Source of the DNA: a virus
Strand: one strand, 5' to 3'
IMG/VR virus record: IMGVR_UViG_3300031787_009930
Span: 1 to 21,398 of that record
DNA length: 21,398 bases
The notes below the pieces were generated by a model that searched no databases, was not told the origin of the DNA, and worked only from the letters and a program-made list of their open reading frames with translations. Both the position numbers and the translations under genes were made by a program. Below are positions 3,023-18,626 of the stretch, in pieces; position 1 is the stretch's first letter, and each line of letters opens with the position of its first letter.

Positions 3023-3265
3023 ATGGCAATATTAAAAGAAGAAATTAAAGGAACTAAAATCTTTAACGAGATTCAATCAAGTAACATCAGAAAATCTGAA
3101 TATGATACTGAAACTAAAAAACTAATTGTTGAGTTCAATAACGGTCATCGTTATGAGTATGATGAGGTACCACACCAATTATATACATCATTTAGAACTT
3201 CGGAATCACAAGGTAAATTTTTTAATAGTAAAATATCTAAAGTTTTCAAATATAAAAAAATTTAA
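3023..3265 (+). CDS. KTSC-domain small protein
   Basis: An 80-residue protein whose residues 18-75 fit the KTSC domain: SSNIRKSEYD at the start, a beta-rich FNNGHRYEYDEVP centre, and the closing segment SQGKFFNSKISKVF that carries the K-F-F-N core. KTSC proteins are small, common in phages and bacteria, and of unproven function; some are fused to or sit next to RNA- or lysyl-tRNA-related proteins. It is transcribed divergently from clp across a 105-base AT-rich gap and lies 30 bases upstream of the large fusion gene. No Shine-Dalgarno sequence precedes the ATG. The family assignment is good; the role is unknown. Confidence 0.75.
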   Translation: MAILKEEIKGTKIFNEIQSSNIRKSEYDTETKKLIVEFNNGHRYEYDEVPHQLYTSFRTSESQGKFFNSKISKVFKYKKI

Positions 3266-3295: not shown

Positions 3296-5608
3296 ATGAG
3301 TAAATTTGAATCTATATTAAAAAGTTTTCATTCTAAAGACAATCTTAATTCTAAGATTTGGAAAGAAAGTGGAAATGACATAACTATTAATCCTACAGTT
3401 AGAAAAAAACTTTTGGAAATTGCTAATGAATTTATTGAATTCCTAAAAGTTGATATTGTAGTTTCTTACATTATTATGACAGGTTCTTTGGCTAATTATA
3501 ATTGGTCAGAATTTTCAGATATTGATTTACATATTGTTGTTGATTTTGAACAATTTAGTAAAGAACAGTTACCATTATATGAAGAACTTTTTAGATTAAA
3601 AAAGACCTTATTCAATGACCAACATGATATCACAATTTATGGTTATGAGGTTGAATTATATGTTCAAAATGAATCAGAATCTCATTTTAGTAGTGGAGTT
3701 TTTTCAGTATTAAACGATGAATGGATTGTTGAACCAAAAAAAGAAGATGTAAAAATTGATATTGGTTTAATAAAAAATAAGGCAGAACAATGGATGAAAA
3801 TTATTGACGGTGTTATTGAAAACGCATCGGATGAACCACTTGATGAAGCTAAAAAAATCATTTCAAAATATAAGGATAAATTAAAAAAATATAGAACCTG
3901 TGGGTTAGAATCAGGTGGGGAATATTCTGATGAAAATTTAGTTTTTAAAATTTTAAGAAGAAATAACTATATTCAAAAGTTATTTGATTTTGAGGTTGAA
4001 ATGGAGGATAAAGAACTTTCTTTAAATGAAAGTAGAATGAAAAAAATAATACTTGAAGGTTCTAAAGATAGTTTAGACCCAAGTGTATTAAAAGCGTTAC
4101 AATCTGTTGAAACTACTTACGGAGTAAAAATAACTGATGATAATGTCAATGATGAATTAGCTCAAGAAAAACAAATCTACCCCGATAATTCAGGAATAGA
4201 TTCTTCAGCGTTATCCCAATTAAAAAAGTTATTATCTGATTTATATTCTAAATTCCCAAATGCACCTGAAGATTCTAACAGTAATTGTGATGGAGTTAAG
4301 GGTTGTGTTTCAGGATATAGAGGATATTCTACACAAGTTAAAACTTTTGGTAGTAAAATCAGTAGAGATGGTGGTGTCTCTAATAGACAAAAATTTTCAG
4401 CTTTACCAGGATTTTCTCAACATCACACAGGTAAAGGATTTGACATATTAAGTGTTGAACCATCATGGTGGAATAAAAATTCTGACATTAAATCATGGGT
4501 TGCTAATAACGTGTGTAAGTATGGATTTAAAGTATCTTATCCAACGGACGGAGTTTTAAGAAGTGCCGAACCTTGGCATTTATTTTATACTGGACAATTT
4601 TGTGGTGGAGATAAAGAAGAAAAAACTGTTGAGAAAGAAAAAACAGTAGAAAAAGAAAAATCATCTGAAATAGTTAAAACTGAAAAAGGTGATTTAATAT
4701 CCGACATAACAAATTTTTCAAAAAGTTCACGAGTATTAACTAATTTAAAAAAAGAAGGTGGTAGATTATCTTTCAATCAGGAAGTTCAAAATTTACAAAA
4801 AGCTTTACAATTTTTAAAATATTCTTTACCAAAATGGGGGGCTGATGGTAAATTTGGTAATGAAACAGAATCAGCATTAAAGAAATTTGAATCCGCAAAT
4901 GGATTAGAAGAAGATGGTAAATTTGATTCTGAAGATGCGGAAATTTTAGTTAAAAAGTTAATTAGTTCAGGATACGAAAAAACTGATGACCAACAAATAC
5001 AAGTAACTCCAAGTGAAGTGGAAAAAGATAAAGTTGTTGCAACTACAACTAATGATGATGAATATGTTGTTTTAATTCCACCAAACTATCAGGGTAAAAA
5101 TGTTCACGTATTATTTGGAGGTTCTCATACATCAGGGTATTCAAAAAATAGTTTTAAAACTGAAGCTATACAAAAATATGGTAATATTTTGAAACCTTAT
5201 GCTACTAACACTATAATTGTGGTAACACATCATATGAATACCGTAAGTAATGTGCAAAAATATGTTAGTGAAAAATACGGTGCAAATGTTACATCTCTCG
5301 CAGGGTTTTCACAAGGTGGTAAAGAAGCTTGGAGACACGCATCAGATAGTTCATATAAATTAGTTGGGTTAATTGACCCATCAACATATCAGACAGATGT
5401 TCAGTTTGGTAGTGGTACTTATTTATACTGCGACCCTAAAAACTGGGGGAAAACAGGATTTTACGGAGAGACAAGGAAAAAATTAGAATGGTATTGTGAT
5501 AACAAAGAAAAATATTCTGGTCACGTAACTTGTTTTGATAAAGGTGGATGGCATATGAATTTTGGTATTTTAAAATCGTTCTACGACACATACGGTTCAA
5601 TGATTTAA
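3296..5608 (+). CDS. Four-domain fusion: nucleotidyltransferase, VanY-like peptidase, peptidoglycan-binding, serine hydrolase
   Basis: A 770-residue protein. (1) Residues ~35-145: nucleotidyltransferase fold with G63-S64 and D75-x-D77 (GSLANYNWSEFSDID). (2) Residues ~295-432: D,D-carboxypeptidase/endopeptidase of the LAS/VanY type, with Zn ligands H376, D383 (SQHHTGKGFD) and H428, and catalytic E425 (SAEPWH). (3) A charged linker with TVEKEK repeats, ~437-462. (4) Residues ~493-555: PG_binding_1 domain (VQNLQKAL, GADGKFGNET). (5) Residues ~588-770: alpha/beta-hydrolase-like domain with nucleophile elbow G670-F-S672-Q-G-G, probable D694 and H753. LNESRMKKIILEG at 243-255 looks like an old N-terminus joined to the first domain. 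No signal peptide or membrane helix. Likely a virion or lysis enzyme that cuts host peptidoglycan; the job of the first and last domains is unknown. Domains 2 and 4 are the firmest. Confidence 0.8.
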   Translation: MSKFESILKSFHSKDNLNSKIWKESGNDITINPTVRKKLLEIANEFIEFLKVDIVVSYIIMTGSLANYNWSEFSDIDLHIVVDFEQFSKEQLPLYEELFRLKKTLFNDQHDITIYGYEVELYVQNESESHFSSGVFSVLNDEWIVEPKKEDVKIDIGLIKNKAEQWMKIIDGVIENASDEPLDEAKKIISKYKDKLKKYRTCGLESGGEYSDENLVFKILRRNNYIQKLFDFEVEMEDKELSLNESRMKKIILEGSKDSLDPSVLKALQSVETTYGVKITDDNVNDELAQEKQIYPDNSGIDSSALSQLKKLLSDLYSKFPNAPEDSNSNCDGVKGCVSGYRGYSTQVKTFGSKISRDGGVSNRQKFSALPGFSQHHTGKGFDILSVEPSWWNKNSDIKSWVANNVCKYGFKVSYPTDGVLRSAEPWHLFYTGQFCGGDKEEKTVEKEKTVEKEKSSEIVKTEKGDLISDITNFSKSSRVLTNLKKEGGRLSFNQEVQNLQKALQFLKYSLPKWGADGKFGNETESALKKFESANGLEEDGKFDSEDAEILVKKLISSGYEKTDDQQIQVTPSEVEKDKVVATTTNDDEYVVLIPPNYQGKNVHVLFGGSHTSGYSKNSFKTEAIQKYGNILKPYATNTIIVVTHHMNTVSNVQKYVSEKYGANVTSLAGFSQGGKEAWRHASDSSYKLVGLIDPSTYQTDVQFGSGTYLYCDPKNWGKTGFYGETRKKLEWYCDNKEKYSGHVTCFDKGGWHMNFGILKSFYDTYGSMI

Positions 5609-5669: not shown

Positions 5670-6917
5670 ATGGGAAAACTAAAACCAATTGGTAGTGAGA
5701 AACTACAAGGTATGGATAAAATCAAACGTATGATTGAAATTGCTACGTATAAAGAGAACATTCCTAACCCTTTAAATGAGACTGCATCACACGAATACGA
5801 TATTAAATTAGCTGATGGTAATAGATACCATATAGTTAAAGAAAAATCAGGATACGTTATTAAAAAAGGATTGACTGAATCTACTTCAGATTATGTTGAA
5901 CCTATGAAAGGTAGAAAATATTATTCTTCATATTCACAAGCATTTAAACGTTTAAATTTAATTGCTAAAGAAGTTAATATTAATGAAGGTTTTGAAAAAA
6001 ACATTTCATTATTTAACGAAGGTGATAACGATGAAGTTAAATATTATTTAAAGACCACAACTAATGAACAGGATGTTCCGGCGGAAAACCCAGCTCCTGC
6101 TCCCGCACCGGCTCCAGCTCCCTCACCTGCCCCTGAACCTGAAATGGGTGATATGGGTGGTGAAGAATCTTCTGAAATGGATGACATGGCAGACGAACCA
6201 ATTGGTGGTGAAGAAGACAACAACGAAGAGGAAGTATCTTTTAAGTCAATTCAAAAGTTAACAGGTAAGTTAGCTCAAAAATTAAGAGAATTAATGGACA
6301 GTGAAGACGAAGAAGAAATTTCTTCTAAAGATAAAAAATATGTAATTAATTCAATACTTTCAGCCATTGATTTAGAATCTATGGAAGAAGATGATAAAGA
6401 AGATATTATCGACAAATTAGAAGGTGAAGAAGATATGGAAGGTTCTGAAGAATCTTCTCAAGGTGAAGAAGATATGGATTTTTCAGATGATATGGCAGAC
6501 CAAGAAATTGGTGGTGAGGAAGAAGAAATGGGACAAGAACCAACACCTCCACCAGCACCAATGGAAATGGGAGAAATGTTTGATGAGGAAGATGAATTCA
6601 CACCTCACAGACCAAGATTTAGAAATAAAGTTGGACATAGAAGTATGAATACTGACGATGTATTTGATGGAATGTTTAATGAATCGAAAATAGACAAAGT
6701 ATTAGAAAAATATTTTGAACCAAAAATTAAAAACCAAGTAGATTTAACTTCAAAGATTGAAAGAATTTCTGAAACAACACTACAAGAATCATCAGCTAAG
6801 AGTTTTATTAATAAATTCCCTTCAGCTAAATTGATTGGTAAAAATAAATTAGGTAATATTATTTTTGAAACCAATAAAGGTAGAAAAGGTATAACACCAA
6901 AAGGAACTATCCTATAA
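5670..6917 (+). CDS. Acidic low-complexity phage protein, probable head or core component
   Basis: A 415-residue protein of unknown function. An ordered N-terminus (1-120, with KLKPIGSEKL and a KYYSSYSQAFKRL segment) is followed by an Ala-Pro stretch (~139-155), a long Glu/Asp/Met-rich middle (~157-315) and a basic, ordered C-terminus (~316-415). The acidic part holds a degenerate internal repeat: DDMADEPIGGEE near 172 and DDMADQEIGGEE near 273. Several (L/I)-x-E-(S/G) strings (LTES, INEG, LQES) resemble T4 prohead-protease sites. The acid-rich, methionine-rich composition matches the scaffold at the right end of the window. It overlaps the next gene by one base (TAATG), so the two are probably translationally coupled. 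A core or structural role is inference. Confidence 0.6.
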   Translation: MGKLKPIGSEKLQGMDKIKRMIEIATYKENIPNPLNETASHEYDIKLADGNRYHIVKEKSGYVIKKGLTESTSDYVEPMKGRKYYSSYSQAFKRLNLIAKEVNINEGFEKNISLFNEGDNDEVKYYLKTTTNEQDVPAENPAPAPAPAPAPSPAPEPEMGDMGGEESSEMDDMADEPIGGEEDNNEEEVSFKSIQKLTGKLAQKLRELMDSEDEEEISSKDKKYVINSILSAIDLESMEEDDKEDIIDKLEGEEDMEGSEESSQGEEDMDFSDDMADQEIGGEEEEMGQEPTPPPAPMEMGEMFDEEDEFTPHRPRFRNKVGHRSMNTDDVFDGMFNESKIDKVLEKYFEPKIKNQVDLTSKIERISETTLQESSAKSFINKFPSAKLIGKNKLGNIIFETNKGRKGITPKGTIL

Positions 6918-11460: not shown

Positions 11461-14400
11461 ATGGGATTTTCATCAAGAAAGAGAACAAAAAGTATTTACA
11501 TGGGGTCAAAGTTAAGTGTCCCTGGTCAAGGTATATATACGGCTAAATTAACTCCGTCTGAAAAGACTCAAGTTAACATACAAACTAATAGAGAACCAAG
11601 ACCATCGTCAACACCAAAACCGGTGGTAAGTTCAACTCCTACACCGACACCAACTCCTAGTACAAGTCCTGTAAGTGTAACACCAACACCAACAGTAACT
11701 ATTTCAGTTACACCTACTTTAACACCAACTATTTCAGTTACACCTACTTTAACCCCAACACCAAGTCCTTCATTTATACCACCAACACCATTTATCGGTA
11801 TATGGAGAACAACAGGGTCTTCTGAAACTATTACATTACCATTCAAAATTAGTGGAACGTATAGTGGAACAATTGATTGGGGTGATGGTAATACATCAGT
11901 TAACTCATATGGTAATAGAATACATATCTATGATACCCCAGGTGACTACACTGTAACAATATACGGAGTGGTAAATGGTTTTGGATATGTGTTTGATGAT
12001 ATTGGAAGTGGTGAAACTTTAAAATTAATAGAGATTCAACAATGGGGGGCCCAATTTAATTTAGGTAGTGATTATAACTATGGTCGTTTTATGGGATGTT
12101 CAAATTTAACTTTAACAGGAGTTACTGATACATTAAATCTTAATGGTACTATTGATATCATGGCAATGTTCTCGGATTGTAGTAATATTACGACAATACA
12201 AAATATTAATAATTGGGACGTTAGTAACATTAACAATCTATTATTTATGTTTAAAGATACACAATTTGACCAAGATATAAGTGGTTGGGATGTTTCAAAC
12301 GTTACTAATATGAGAGGTATGTTTTATAATTCATCATTCAATCAAGATATTAGTGGATGGAATGTGTCGGGAGTTACCGATATGTTTAGTATGTTCCAAG
12401 GTACACAATTTAATCAAGATATAAGTGGTTGGGATGTTTCAAACGTTACTAATATGTCAGGTATGTTTAATAATACACCATTTAATCAAGACATTAGTGG
12501 ATGGGATGTATCCTCTGTGACAAATATGGGTTTTATGTTCCTATCAACACCATTTAACCAAGATATTAGTGGATGGGACGTTTCAAAGGTAACAAATATG
12601 GGTCAAATGTTTCAAAATTCATCATTCAATCAAGATATTGGTAAATGGAATGTGTCTGGAGTTACAGATATGGGTTCCATGTTTTGGTCAGCATTGTCAT
12701 TTAATCAAGATATTAGTGGTTGGGATGTTAGTAATGTAACAAGTATATTCGGTATGTATGGTATGTTTTTTAGTGCCACGTCATTTAACCAAGATTTAAG
12801 TAGTTGGTGTGTACCATTAATACCTTCATTACCTCCATTTTTTGACGATAACACACCTTCTTGGGTACTACCTAGACCAAATTGGGGAACTTGTCCACCA
12901 TTTATTAGTATTTGGAGAACAACTTCACCAAATGAAACTATAACATTACCATACGAAAATACAGGAACATATGATGGTACTATTGATTGGGGTGACGGTA
13001 ACACTTCAGGTAATTCATATTCAAATAGAACACATACTTATTTAACACCTGGTGATTATACAATAACAATATCAGGTGATTGTGTTGGTTTTAGATTTAA
13101 CGATAGTGGTGATGATACAAAAATTAGAGAAATTACTCAATGGGGTAGCAAATTTAGATTAGGTAATAATGGATATTATTTTGCGGGATGTTTTAATTTA
13201 GTTTTAACAGGTGTTACTGATGTATTAAATTTACAAGGAACAGATAACTTAACAAGTATGTTTGTAGGATGTAGTCAAATAACTACTGTTAATAGAATGG
13301 ATGAATGGGATGTCTCAAATGTAATAAATATGAATTCAATGTTCCTTAATGCAACTAGTTTTAATCAAGACATTAGTAGTTGGGATGTTTCTAATGTTAC
13401 GATTATGACAGCAATGTTTTTAGGTACACTATTTAACCAAGACATTAGTAGTTGGGATGTTTCAAGTGTAACAGATATGGGAAGTATGTTCTCATTTTCT
13501 CAATTTAATCAAAATATAAGTTTATGGAATGTGTCAGGAGTTACTAATACTTCATTTATGTTTGCGATTACACTATTTAACCAAGATATTGGAGTATGGG
13601 ATGTCTCAAATGTTACTTACATGTATGGTATGTTCCAAGGTTGTGTACCATTCAACCAAGACATTAGTAGTTGGGACGTTTCTAATGTTACCAATATGGA
13701 TTACATGTTTTATAATACATCATCATTTAATCAAGATTTATCTTATTGGTGTGTAGCATTAATCCCTTCATTACCTGACAACTTTGACACAGGAGCATCT
13801 TCATGGGTATTACCTAAACCAGTATGGGGAACTTGTCCCACACCTCCATTTATTAGTATATGGGACACTACTAAAACTTCAGCAGGGTCATCAAGTTCTA
13901 ATCAGGTGTCTCTACCTTTAGACTCATTTGGAATTTATAATGGTACTATTGATTGGGGTGATGGTAATATTAGTGCGAATACTTTCGCAAATAAAACTCA
14001 TACGTATTCATCACCAGGTGTTTATACAATAACCATATCAGGGACAAGTATTGGATTTGGTCCATTTAATAATGGTGGTGATAGACTTAAATTGATTGAA
14101 ATAACTAAATGGGGAAATTTTACTTTTCAAGGAACTTCTTTACAAGGTTATTGGTTCTCAGGATGTCAAAATTTAAAATTATCTGGAGTTACCGACTCTA
14201 TTACTTTAGGTTTTACAACTGATTTAACTTCAATGTTTAATAATTGTACTTCATTAACTACAATAAACAACTCAAATAATTGGGATGTGTCAAGTGTTCA
14301 ATTTATGGGTAATATGTTTTTAAATTGTAATCAGTTTAATGATTCAGGTATTACATCTTGGGATGTGTCAAACGTAACTAATATGAATGGTATGTTTTTT

Positions 14401-14532
14401 CTTAACACATTATTTAACCAAGATTTAAGTGGGTGGTGTGTTCCATTAATACCGTCATTACCAACAAACTTTGATACCGCCGCAACTTCTTGGGTATTAC
14501 CTAGACCAATTTGGGGAACTTGTCCACCTTAA
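11461..14532 (+). CDS. BspA/DUF285 repeat protein with three PKD-like modules, probable virion adhesin
   Basis: A 1023-residue protein. A basic head (MGFSSRKRTK) with no signal peptide is followed by a Thr/Pro/Ser linker (~48-108) and three modules starting at about 111, 481 and 797. Each opens with FI(S/G)IW, a PKD-like beta domain with TIDWGDGN and GDYT(V/I)TI, then 24-residue DUF285/BspA repeats (FNQDISGWDVSNVTNM type), and closes with a W-C-V ... WGTCP cap whose two cysteines may pair. Repeat numbers are about 8, 6 and 2. Such proteins are usually secreted, surface-attached proteins of Bacteroidota and Firmicutes; here there is neither an export signal nor a sorting domain, and it sits between terminase and portal. 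A capsid- or tail-borne host-binding protein is the best guess (inference). Alternative: a morons-type cargo gene released by lysis. Confidence 0.85.
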   Translation: MGFSSRKRTKSIYMGSKLSVPGQGIYTAKLTPSEKTQVNIQTNREPRPSSTPKPVVSSTPTPTPTPSTSPVSVTPTPTVTISVTPTLTPTISVTPTLTPTPSPSFIPPTPFIGIWRTTGSSETITLPFKISGTYSGTIDWGDGNTSVNSYGNRIHIYDTPGDYTVTIYGVVNGFGYVFDDIGSGETLKLIEIQQWGAQFNLGSDYNYGRFMGCSNLTLTGVTDTLNLNGTIDIMAMFSDCSNITTIQNINNWDVSNINNLLFMFKDTQFDQDISGWDVSNVTNMRGMFYNSSFNQDISGWNVSGVTDMFSMFQGTQFNQDISGWDVSNVTNMSGMFNNTPFNQDISGWDVSSVTNMGFMFLSTPFNQDISGWDVSKVTNMGQMFQNSSFNQDIGKWNVSGVTDMGSMFWSALSFNQDISGWDVSNVTSIFGMYGMFFSATSFNQDLSSWCVPLIPSLPPFFDDNTPSWVLPRPNWGTCPPFISIWRTTSPNETITLPYENTGTYDGTIDWGDGNTSGNSYSNRTHTYLTPGDYTITISGDCVGFRFNDSGDDTKIREITQWGSKFRLGNNGYYFAGCFNLVLTGVTDVLNLQGTDNLTSMFVGCSQITTVNRMDEWDVSNVINMNSMFLNATSFNQDISSWDVSNVTIMTAMFLGTLFNQDISSWDVSSVTDMGSMFSFSQFNQNISLWNVSGVTNTSFMFAITLFNQDIGVWDVSNVTYMYGMFQGCVPFNQDISSWDVSNVTNMDYMFYNTSSFNQDLSYWCVALIPSLPDNFDTGASSWVLPKPVWGTCPTPPFISIWDTTKTSAGSSSSNQVSLPLDSFGIYNGTIDWGDGNISANTFANKTHTYSSPGVYTITISGTSIGFGPFNNGGDRLKLIEITKWGNFTFQGTSLQGYWFSGCQNLKLSGVTDSITLGFTTDLTSMFNNCTSLTTINNSNNWDVSSVQFMGNMFLNCNQFNDSGITSWDVSNVTNMNGMFFLNTLFNQDLSGWCVPLIPSLPTNFDTAATSWVLPRPIWGTCPP
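12211..12813 (+). repeat. DUF285 array 1, about 8 units of 72 bp
   Basis: Units are 24 codons (72 bp), each with W-D/N-V-S ... M-F-F-N-Q-D. Within it, 42 bases at 12271-12312 recur exactly at 12415-12456 (144 bp = 2 units apart), and 24 bases at 12328-12351 recur at 12616-12639 (288 bp = 4 units). Units 2 and 6 also share the NVSGVTDM variant, which suggests block duplications. Confidence 0.9.
13303..13752 (+). repeat. DUF285 array 2, about 6 units
   Basis: Same unit as array 1, mostly as FNQDISSWDVSNVT. Units are more diverged at the DNA level than in array 1. It ends in the cysteine cap of module 2. Confidence 0.85.
14275..14430 (+). repeat. DUF285 array 3, about 2 units
   Basis: The shortest array: two full W-D-V-S units, one with an inserted DSGITS segment, then the cap motif of module 3. 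Confidence 0.8.
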
Positions 14533-17891: not shown

Positions 17892-18626
17892 ATGAACTTA
17901 GAAATAATAAAACCTGGTCAAGTTGGGAAAGGAATTCTTATCGAGTACGATGCGGGATATATCAATCCAAAAGAGAACGGTAATGAGAAGATAATTAAAG
18001 AATCTAAAAATTTTTTAGACCACTCAAAACCATTTGAATTTTACGCAGTTTTACAAAAGTATGACACTCCAAATAGAAACGGTAGAATATACCCTGAAAA
18101 AATATTAAAAAGAGAAGCAGACAATTATAAAAAAATGATTGAGAAGGGAACTTCCCTTTCTGAATTAAATCACCCTGAATCGTCATTAATTGACTTAGAT
18201 AGAGTTTCACACATCATCACCGAAGTATGGTGGGATGGAAAAGTATTAATGGGTAAGTTGAAATTGTTAACATCACCAGGATTTCACGAAAGAGGAATCT
18301 GTTCAACAAAAGGTGATTTGGCAGCTAACTACTTAAGACAAGGAGTTACTCTTGGTATTTCTTCTCGTGGTGTAGGTTCATTAAAAAAAGTTGGTGAACA
18401 AAATGAAGTACAAGATGACTTTGAACTTATTTGTTTTGACCTTGTTTCTTCACCATCAACACCTGGAGCATATTTGTTTACAGAACCTAATGAAAGATTC
18501 AACTTTGAAGAGAATTTAGAAGAAGAAAACAAAATGAGAGCAGAAAGAACAACAGGTATGAGCGGAGATTCTATTGATAAACAAAAAGAACTGATGAAAA
18601 AATTGTCCGCATACCTTGATAGATAA
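17892..18626 (+). CDS. Prohead core protease (T4 gp21-like, peptidase S77)
   Basis: A serine protease that in T4 is built into the prohead, activates itself, then cuts scaffold, core and capsid proteins after (L/I)-x-E. Residues 55-203 hold the family pattern: NRNGRIYP (61-68), ELNHP with H94 as the probable catalytic histidine, DRVSHIITEVWWDG (103-116), LGISSRGVGS (154-163) with the catalytic serine at 157 or 158, and FELICFDLVSSPSTPGA (177-193) with D183. The length (244) is near T4 gp21 (212). The C-terminal ~45 residues are charged and may be a removable tail. It stands directly upstream of two small genes and the scaffold. Assignment is secure. Confidence 0.93.
   Translation: MNLEIIKPGQVGKGILIEYDAGYINPKENGNEKIIKESKNFLDHSKPFEFYAVLQKYDTPNRNGRIYPEKILKREADNYKKMIEKGTSLSELNHPESSLIDLDRVSHIITEVWWDGKVLMGKLKLLTSPGFHERGICSTKGDLAANYLRQGVTLGISSRGVGSLKKVGEQNEVQDDFELICFDLVSSPSTPGAYLFTEPNERFNFEENLEEENKMRAERTTGMSGDSIDKQKELMKKLSAYLDR

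Follow-up and report, generated by a model that had tools for sequence, protein, structure and literature searches.

The stretch of DNA analysed, referred to here as the window, is the 21,398 nt of IMG/VR record IMGVR_UViG_3300031787_009930 (positions 1 to 21,398 of this 21.4-kb virus record), from a phage with a terminase, a portal and a head maturation protease of T4 type. Its terminase shares less than 30% identity with its best matches among the isolates of the collection, those with names being led by a Microcystis phage and by phages of Flavobacterium (about 27%). The phage belongs to a lineage of uncultivated T4-like phages whose hosts are probably Bacteroidota. Inside its head gene cluster, adjoining terminase, portal and prohead protease, is an open reading frame (3296-5608, + strand), uninterrupted over 770 codons, whose 770 aa product comprises, in order, a nucleotidyltransferase (NT), a VanY peptidase, a peptidoglycan-binding (PGB) domain and an alpha/beta hydrolase. 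The neighbours identified around it so far are head genes. The features relevant here are:

3023..3265, + strand: KTSC-domain protein of 80 aa, in relatives almost always the gene just before the NT (PF13619, E=8e-19; synteny)
3296..4030, + strand: NT of Pol-beta type, aa 1-245 (Pfam NTP_transf_2, phrog_36119, model, invariant residues)
4022..4033, + strand: joint of the domains, with a putative site (site 1) for the prohead protease, L243-N244-E245 then S246 ([ILV]xE motif in 38/38 fusions)
4037..4057, + strand: remnant of an earlier N-terminal tag (MKKIILE, aa 248-254), with putative site 2 at its end, I252-L253-E254 before G255 (free-lysin alignment; L105 gene)
4058..4603, + strand: VanY / M15-type zinc peptidase, aa 255-436 (PF02557; LdcB/DacB and VanX/VanY structures matched by sequence)
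4604..4750, + strand: variable linker with KEKTVEKEKTVEKEK repeats, aa 437-485 (dN/dS 0.36-1.09)
4751..4975, + strand: PG_binding_1 domain, aa 486-560, with GADGKFG at 515-521 (PF01471, E=1e-12)
5036..5605, + strand: compact, esterase-like alpha/beta hydrolase, aa 581-770, with S672 (in GFSQGG), H753 and, as acid, D713 or D694 (model, Foldseek, VIA, 11 homologues)
5670..6917, + strand: conserved downstream gene (MGKLKPIGSEKL...NPLNE), following the NT directly or after one variable gene at nearly all loci
17892..18626, + strand: head maturation (prohead) protease, candidate for cutting the joint (phrog_207, E=4e-43)

Among NT relatives the order is near-constant, with the KTSC gene, the NT, at some loci a variable gene, the MGKLKPIGSEKL gene, whose product is a probable head protein with an LxE propeptide-like N-terminus, three small genes and then the terminase. 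The variable gene (L036, L042-L055) encodes Thr/Pro-rich, lectin-like proteins with a conserved C-terminus (QLNAITLGGFNGLNN). A Clp-type ATPase gene directly before the head cluster (875-2917, - strand) is conserved in nearly all relatives. Between terminase and portal is an unusual insertion in the cluster, a gene (11461-14532) for a 1023-aa protein, BspA-like by eye, that has a Thr/Pro-rich stretch and many FNQDISGWDVSNVTNM repeats.

Four domains under constraint

The same four-domain ORF is present in two contigs from other metagenomes, L003 (96% identity) and L002 (93%). The earlier note had envisaged that related phages might carry the parts as separate genes, the joined form then being an assembly error; separate genes do occur in relatives, as dealt with below, and an assembly error is ruled out because the same protein recurs in independent contigs, with dN/dS well below 1. 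Among the three alleles dN/dS is 0.03-0.05 for the NT, 0.04-0.08 for VanY, 0.06-0.09 for PGB and 0.04-0.09 for the hydrolase, so that all four are constrained and purifying selection acts on each domain of the fusion; for the linker (aa 437-485) the same alleles yield 0.36-1.09.

The NT matches NTP_transf_2 over aa 45-128 (23.7 bits, with the Pfam cut-off at 21) and phrog_36119 at E=2e-41. It has the Pol-beta arrangement, G-S-x(9-13)-D-x-D with a third carboxylate on a neighbouring strand, in the form GS(63-64)-x10-DID(75-77) and E120, the last being absent from the earlier residue list. Across 21 aligned NT relatives, down to 34% identity, no change is seen at G63, D75, D77 or E120, and hardly any at S64. 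This part is modelled at pLDDT mostly 80-94 and its acids lie on adjacent strands; its C-terminal half is helical and conserved (GEYSxENLVFKxLRR), the domain ending in DKELSLNE. With respect to function, searches of Pfam, NCBIfam, PADLOC, PDB and cellular homologues yielded generic NT matches only. The best PDB sequence match, the AMPylating domain of DrrA/SidM (E=0.0016), and the MntA antitoxin (E 0.03-0.08) share GSx10DxD and the third acid, though these matches are weak, confined to the catalytic core, and not such that a substrate can be read from them. The PHROG 36119 family is widespread in phages, Maribacter phages, Lak phages and cyanophages included, and in cyanophages the NT sits among replication genes. 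The context of NT relatives on five genome contigs, some of them phage-derived by gene content, was uninformative. Two homologues (L099, L100) are on long contigs of Gastranaerophilales MAGs, with neighbours that look bacterial by eye (response-regulator-like and export-apparatus-like). A jumbo-phage review (PMC7824862) lists RlaP, a family of Pol-beta NTs, under RNA repair and describes KTSC as RNA-binding, and by analogy, given the KTSC gene next door, RNA is also a possible target of the NT.

The PF02557 match of VanY (aa 337-433, E=5e-19, 68.9 bits as against a cut-off of 25) contains the zinc ligands H376, D383 and H428 and the catalytic base E425 expected of a VanY / M15B zinc peptidase, all four invariant among VanY homologues. 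These residues are held in common with the VanY/LdcB carboxypeptidases (MEROPS M15B), and LdcB/DacB structures match by sequence; the differences are that the window domain is embedded in a phage multidomain protein and that, on the NCBIfam LdcB/DacB L,D-carboxypeptidase profile NF041194, it scores 52.7 bits, under the cut-off of 275. Peptidases of VanY/LdcB type trim or cut stem peptides, and those of VanY type are often carboxypeptidases, which leave the wall unopened. For PGB, the PF01471 match (aa 495-546, 48 bits with a cut-off of 23) places it in PG_binding_1, with anchoring as its putative role in the fusion, and VanY and PGB together constitute the predicted muralytic and wall-binding pair of a phage endolysin.

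No Pfam family was matched by the C-terminal domain. In the whole-chain model VanY and PGB are poor, mostly with pLDDT below 50 (MAFFT had aligned lysin-only rows to the NT), and for this reason fold claims are taken from a separate model of the hydrolase domain. Built with 11 homologues, it has mean pLDDT 88.7 and pTM 0.88, and is an alpha/beta hydrolase with a central sheet, a nucleophile elbow (GFSQGG), D713 and H753; Foldseek against PDB relates it to esterases and cutinases at E about 4e-6. The VIA matches were obtained with the whole-chain model, whose fold-match list is filled by hydrolase-domain rows, with none for the NT, and the best has Z 13.8 with 3.8 A over 175 residues. CE1 feruloyl esterases are among its top rows (Z 13-13.8), tied with S-formylglutathione hydrolase, Ag85C and other esterases. 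S672, D694, D713 and H753 are all invariant in the 11 homologues. In model numbering, S672 begins the helix after strand 93-100, D694 comes after strand 118-122, D713 after strand 137-141 and H753 after strand 173-175. The catalytic acid of alpha/beta hydrolases is usually located after the second strand beyond the nucleophile, and since D713 follows the strand next after that of D694, which is the usual place, the model makes S672-D713-H753 the more likely triad. What the enzyme removes would, as a guess, be an ester, acetyl groups of glycans in the wall or on the surface being one example. In isolated phages no match to this domain was found by tblastn at E<=1.

The proposal in the earlier note of four domains with conserved catalytic or binding residues (G63-S64/D75-D77 in the NT, H376/D383/E425/H428 in VanY, GADGKFG in PGB) is borne out by Pfam matches, residue invariance and the hydrolase model, with profile searches by segment placing NTP_transf_2, PF02557 and PF01471 over their cut-offs and leaving the C-terminal segment without a Pfam family. 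For the triad S672/D694/H753 that it gave, the invariant serine and histidine stand, while D694 as the acid is doubtful, D713 being the better fit to the fold.

Exchangeable wall enzymes on one nucleotidyltransferase

At this locus an NT without a partner, 240-255 aa long, is the majority state (most of 63 distinct rows). The sets of wall enzymes on the others are M23; M23-PGB (L050; M23-PGB-X in L041); M23-PGB-hydrolase (L103 and L106, at the same locus); PGB-M23-lysozyme-VanY (L091, where PGB, M23, tail lysozyme and VanY are on the NT in one 888-codon ORF with a TTG start); and VanY-PGB-hydrolase in the window. An M23-seeded search yielded 28 NT-M23, 14 NT-M23-PGB, 13 NT-M23-PGB-X, 7 NT-M23-PGB-hydrolase and 5 NT-PGB ORFs, not all distinct. 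A tree built from the 63 distinct NTs requires no fewer than 5 changes in wall-enzyme state and 11 in architecture, counts in which gain cannot be distinguished from loss. The window fusion, for whose set of domains the earlier note knew of no described enzyme, is on sequence relationships one of a series of NT fusions with exchangeable wall enzymes, one of several architectures in which the NT carries them. An unrelated, non-wall domain of 180 aa is fused to the NT in L051, L057, L059 and L071, at the same joint and with an [ILV]xE motif there too, and L078 has an N-terminal extension. L074:6001-6822 and L075:4385-5269 appear to be in-frame deletions of the M23 part, in which NT and PGB tail remain.

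The origin of the window fusion can be followed in relatives where its parts are separate. In L105, the NT (248 aa) and a PGB-hydrolase (346 aa) are two genes at the same locus, with a 17-base overlap and in different frames, the second gene beginning MKKIIKLTELDLERIVKRVISEQ (start MKKIIKLTE). Away from this locus, L086-L090 have free-standing VanY-PGB-hydrolase genes of 526-527 aa that start MKRLIISESEK..., and in the one such phage checked (L089, an 84-kb record) the NT is a separate gene. These free lysins have the last three domains of the window protein in the same order (VanY 57-59%, hydrolase about 60%) and differ in lacking the NT, in having a short N-terminal tag of their own and in genomic place. 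MKKIILEG at 248-255 matches their N-terminus, and because the window aligns gap-free from E254 on with the free lysins from LLTE (then K), MKKIILE is taken to be a shortened N-terminal tag. That a gene fusion had left a former N-terminus here was a suggestion of the earlier note, now upheld by this alignment and the separate gene of L105; the split homologues whose existence it had raised are found at this locus in L105 and at another place in L086-L090. In L086 the free VanY lysin is immediately followed by a tagged gene (L086:2479-3252; GGYYNPNWH...GETMFGIDRKHGG) whose product is muramidase-like by eye, with no confident Pfam family.

The domains of the window protein have different nearest relatives. 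For its NT (69%), PGB (54%) and hydrolase (66-68%), the nearest relatives are proteins of NT-M23-PGB-hydrolase type or those of L105, the PGB being specifically nearest to that of L106/L103 (54%). For its VanY (59%) the nearest is a free lysin, and the PGB of this lysin resembles the window's at only 36%. On this sequence pattern, VanY probably replaced M23 in an NT-M23-PGB-hydrolase ancestor. The present-day proteins of that type (L103, L104, L106-L108, L148-L150) share with the window the locus and the three domains at the identities just given, and differ in having M23 where the window has VanY and in a joint that has no MKKIILE tag remnant; no description of these proteins of uncultivated phages was found in the literature searched. 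Nor was a description of an NT-lysin fusion found in the open-access literature searched.

As each domain is from a known family or fold, the fusion falls among modular phage lysins, with a small esterase-like domain added to known lysin parts. What sets it apart is the repeated attachment of an NT to different wall enzymes together with the joint motif considered next; the papers searched describe no NT that is repeatedly joined to several wall enzymes with a protease motif exact at the joint.

The joint motif and the prohead protease

At the joint, 38/38 distinct fusions have [ILV]xE with Q, S, A, G, T or V as the next residue; the figure for NT-only tails is 4/31, one of these four being the deletion remnant L074. 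The motif occurs in 12.5% of random 30-aa windows, and any formal probability for its presence at the joint is inflated by kinship, the 38 fusions being related rows. The E of LSLxE is part of the C-terminus proper to the NT family, which leaves as independent evidence only the spacing and the P1' residue. In M23 parts, both free and fused, [ILV]xE is at the same spacing a few residues before IGGxF (18/18), the free genes having tag-LITE then GKEVIGG, or KKIISE then GSTNIGG, and the fused ones LSLKE then STTNIGG. The leaders of the terminase-adjacent protein vary in length and sequence and all end in [ILV]xE before APIDY or QIDY (18/18). The capsid protein has LINE then A, with the motif at E60, close to the position at which the T4 capsid protein is cut. 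In these two proteins [ILV]xE likely marks the ends of propeptides. With [I/L]xE before the mature protein and a protease gene present, the fusion has the sequence features of a substrate of a T4-type prohead protease.

At the N-terminus, many small proteins of the lineage that are otherwise unrelated, transglycosylase-like and PGB proteins included, share the motif MKK(I/V)I(K/R)LTESxLxxIVKRVIxEQ (L128, L132, L133 and L142, which are pieces of a 322-kb record, and other loci). As a mark of head proteins only, the tag is not clean: 13/326 ORFs in this 322-kb relative carry it at E<=0.01 (a control search gave one match among 248 internal segments), many of them small and away from head genes, and so it may not mean head targeting.

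The exactness of the joint motif suggests that one chain is made and then cut in two inside the new particle, and the reading preferred here, judged about evenly poised between right and wrong, is that the fusion is a polyprotein of head-packaged enzymes. The NT-lysin chain would be made together with head proteins and enter the prohead, where the protease would cut the joint at LNE before S, at ILE before G, or at both. Mature NT and mature wall hydrolase would then travel in the virion and exit with the DNA, the hydrolase helping to open the host wall and the NT transferring a nucleotide to a host target.

Of the alternatives, the best surviving, though unlikely, is an ordinary endolysin or tail-associated lysin that is never cut, with the NT as a passenger that acts independently of the wall enzymes. 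VanY, M23 and PGB are indeed standard lysin parts, and wall modules appear and disappear across the NT tree, with the deletion look of L074 and L075 in keeping with this. However, the locus is in the head cluster and the exact joint motif is left unexplained. Further, in the 80.6-kb record of L061/L121, whose phage has an NT-M23-PGB-X fusion, another PGB protein is encoded apart from it, untagged and GH19 endolysin-like by eye (L121). With this second lysin, and with two more genes in the 322-kb relative that are tagged and wall-enzyme-like, lysis need not be the task of the fusion.

Distinctly less probable is an uncut bifunctional effector, in which the NT modifies the attached hydrolase, or in which wall binding carries the NT to something in the envelope, for instance a surface polymer, a lipid-linked precursor or a protein. 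That one NT is found time and again with a range of wall enzymes, and that selection is strong on all domains in cis, would fit, but the NT is mostly solo, also in phages that have no fusion, and the linker is long and fast-evolving and the joint protease-like. Least probable is that the NT part functions above all as a propeptide for capsid targeting, replacing the short MKKIIxLTE tag, its catalysis incidental to the fusion, as a whole NT does stand where free lysins have only a short tag, at a joint kept to the residue, but its catalytic residues are invariant with dN/dS of 0.03-0.05, and solo NTs retain theirs as well.

To return to the polyprotein reading, the NT, which the earlier note thought could tag or switch off a partner, probably has a target of its own, separate from the wall enzyme, since it is usually solo, is among replication genes in cyanophages, and is joined to its partners by a protease-like site. 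Its cyanophage location also means that it need not be a virion protein, and a VanY with carboxypeptidase activity, frequent in its type, would not serve to open the wall, which likewise counts against the polyprotein reading. More tentatively, and with the odds against it, the fusions may represent a class of virion polyproteins in which the NT is both capsid-targeting leader and ejected host-modifying enzyme, and the exchangeable wall hydrolases are released by the prohead protease. If the polyprotein reading is right, [ILV]xE at a domain joint or N-terminal tag would be a testable rule for virion-packaged enzymes in uncultivated T4-like phages, and the PHROG 36119 NT family would be a candidate host-modifying enzyme.

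The nearest parallel is with T4, whose head and internal proteins have propeptides and capsid-targeting leaders that are cut by the same kind of protease (PMC9026906). The difference from the T4 internal proteins is that the leader here would be a whole enzyme domain. In common with them, with their capsid-targeting sequence and gp21 cleavage (PMC9026906), the window has an N-terminal leader ending in [I/L]xE and a prohead protease gene nearby.
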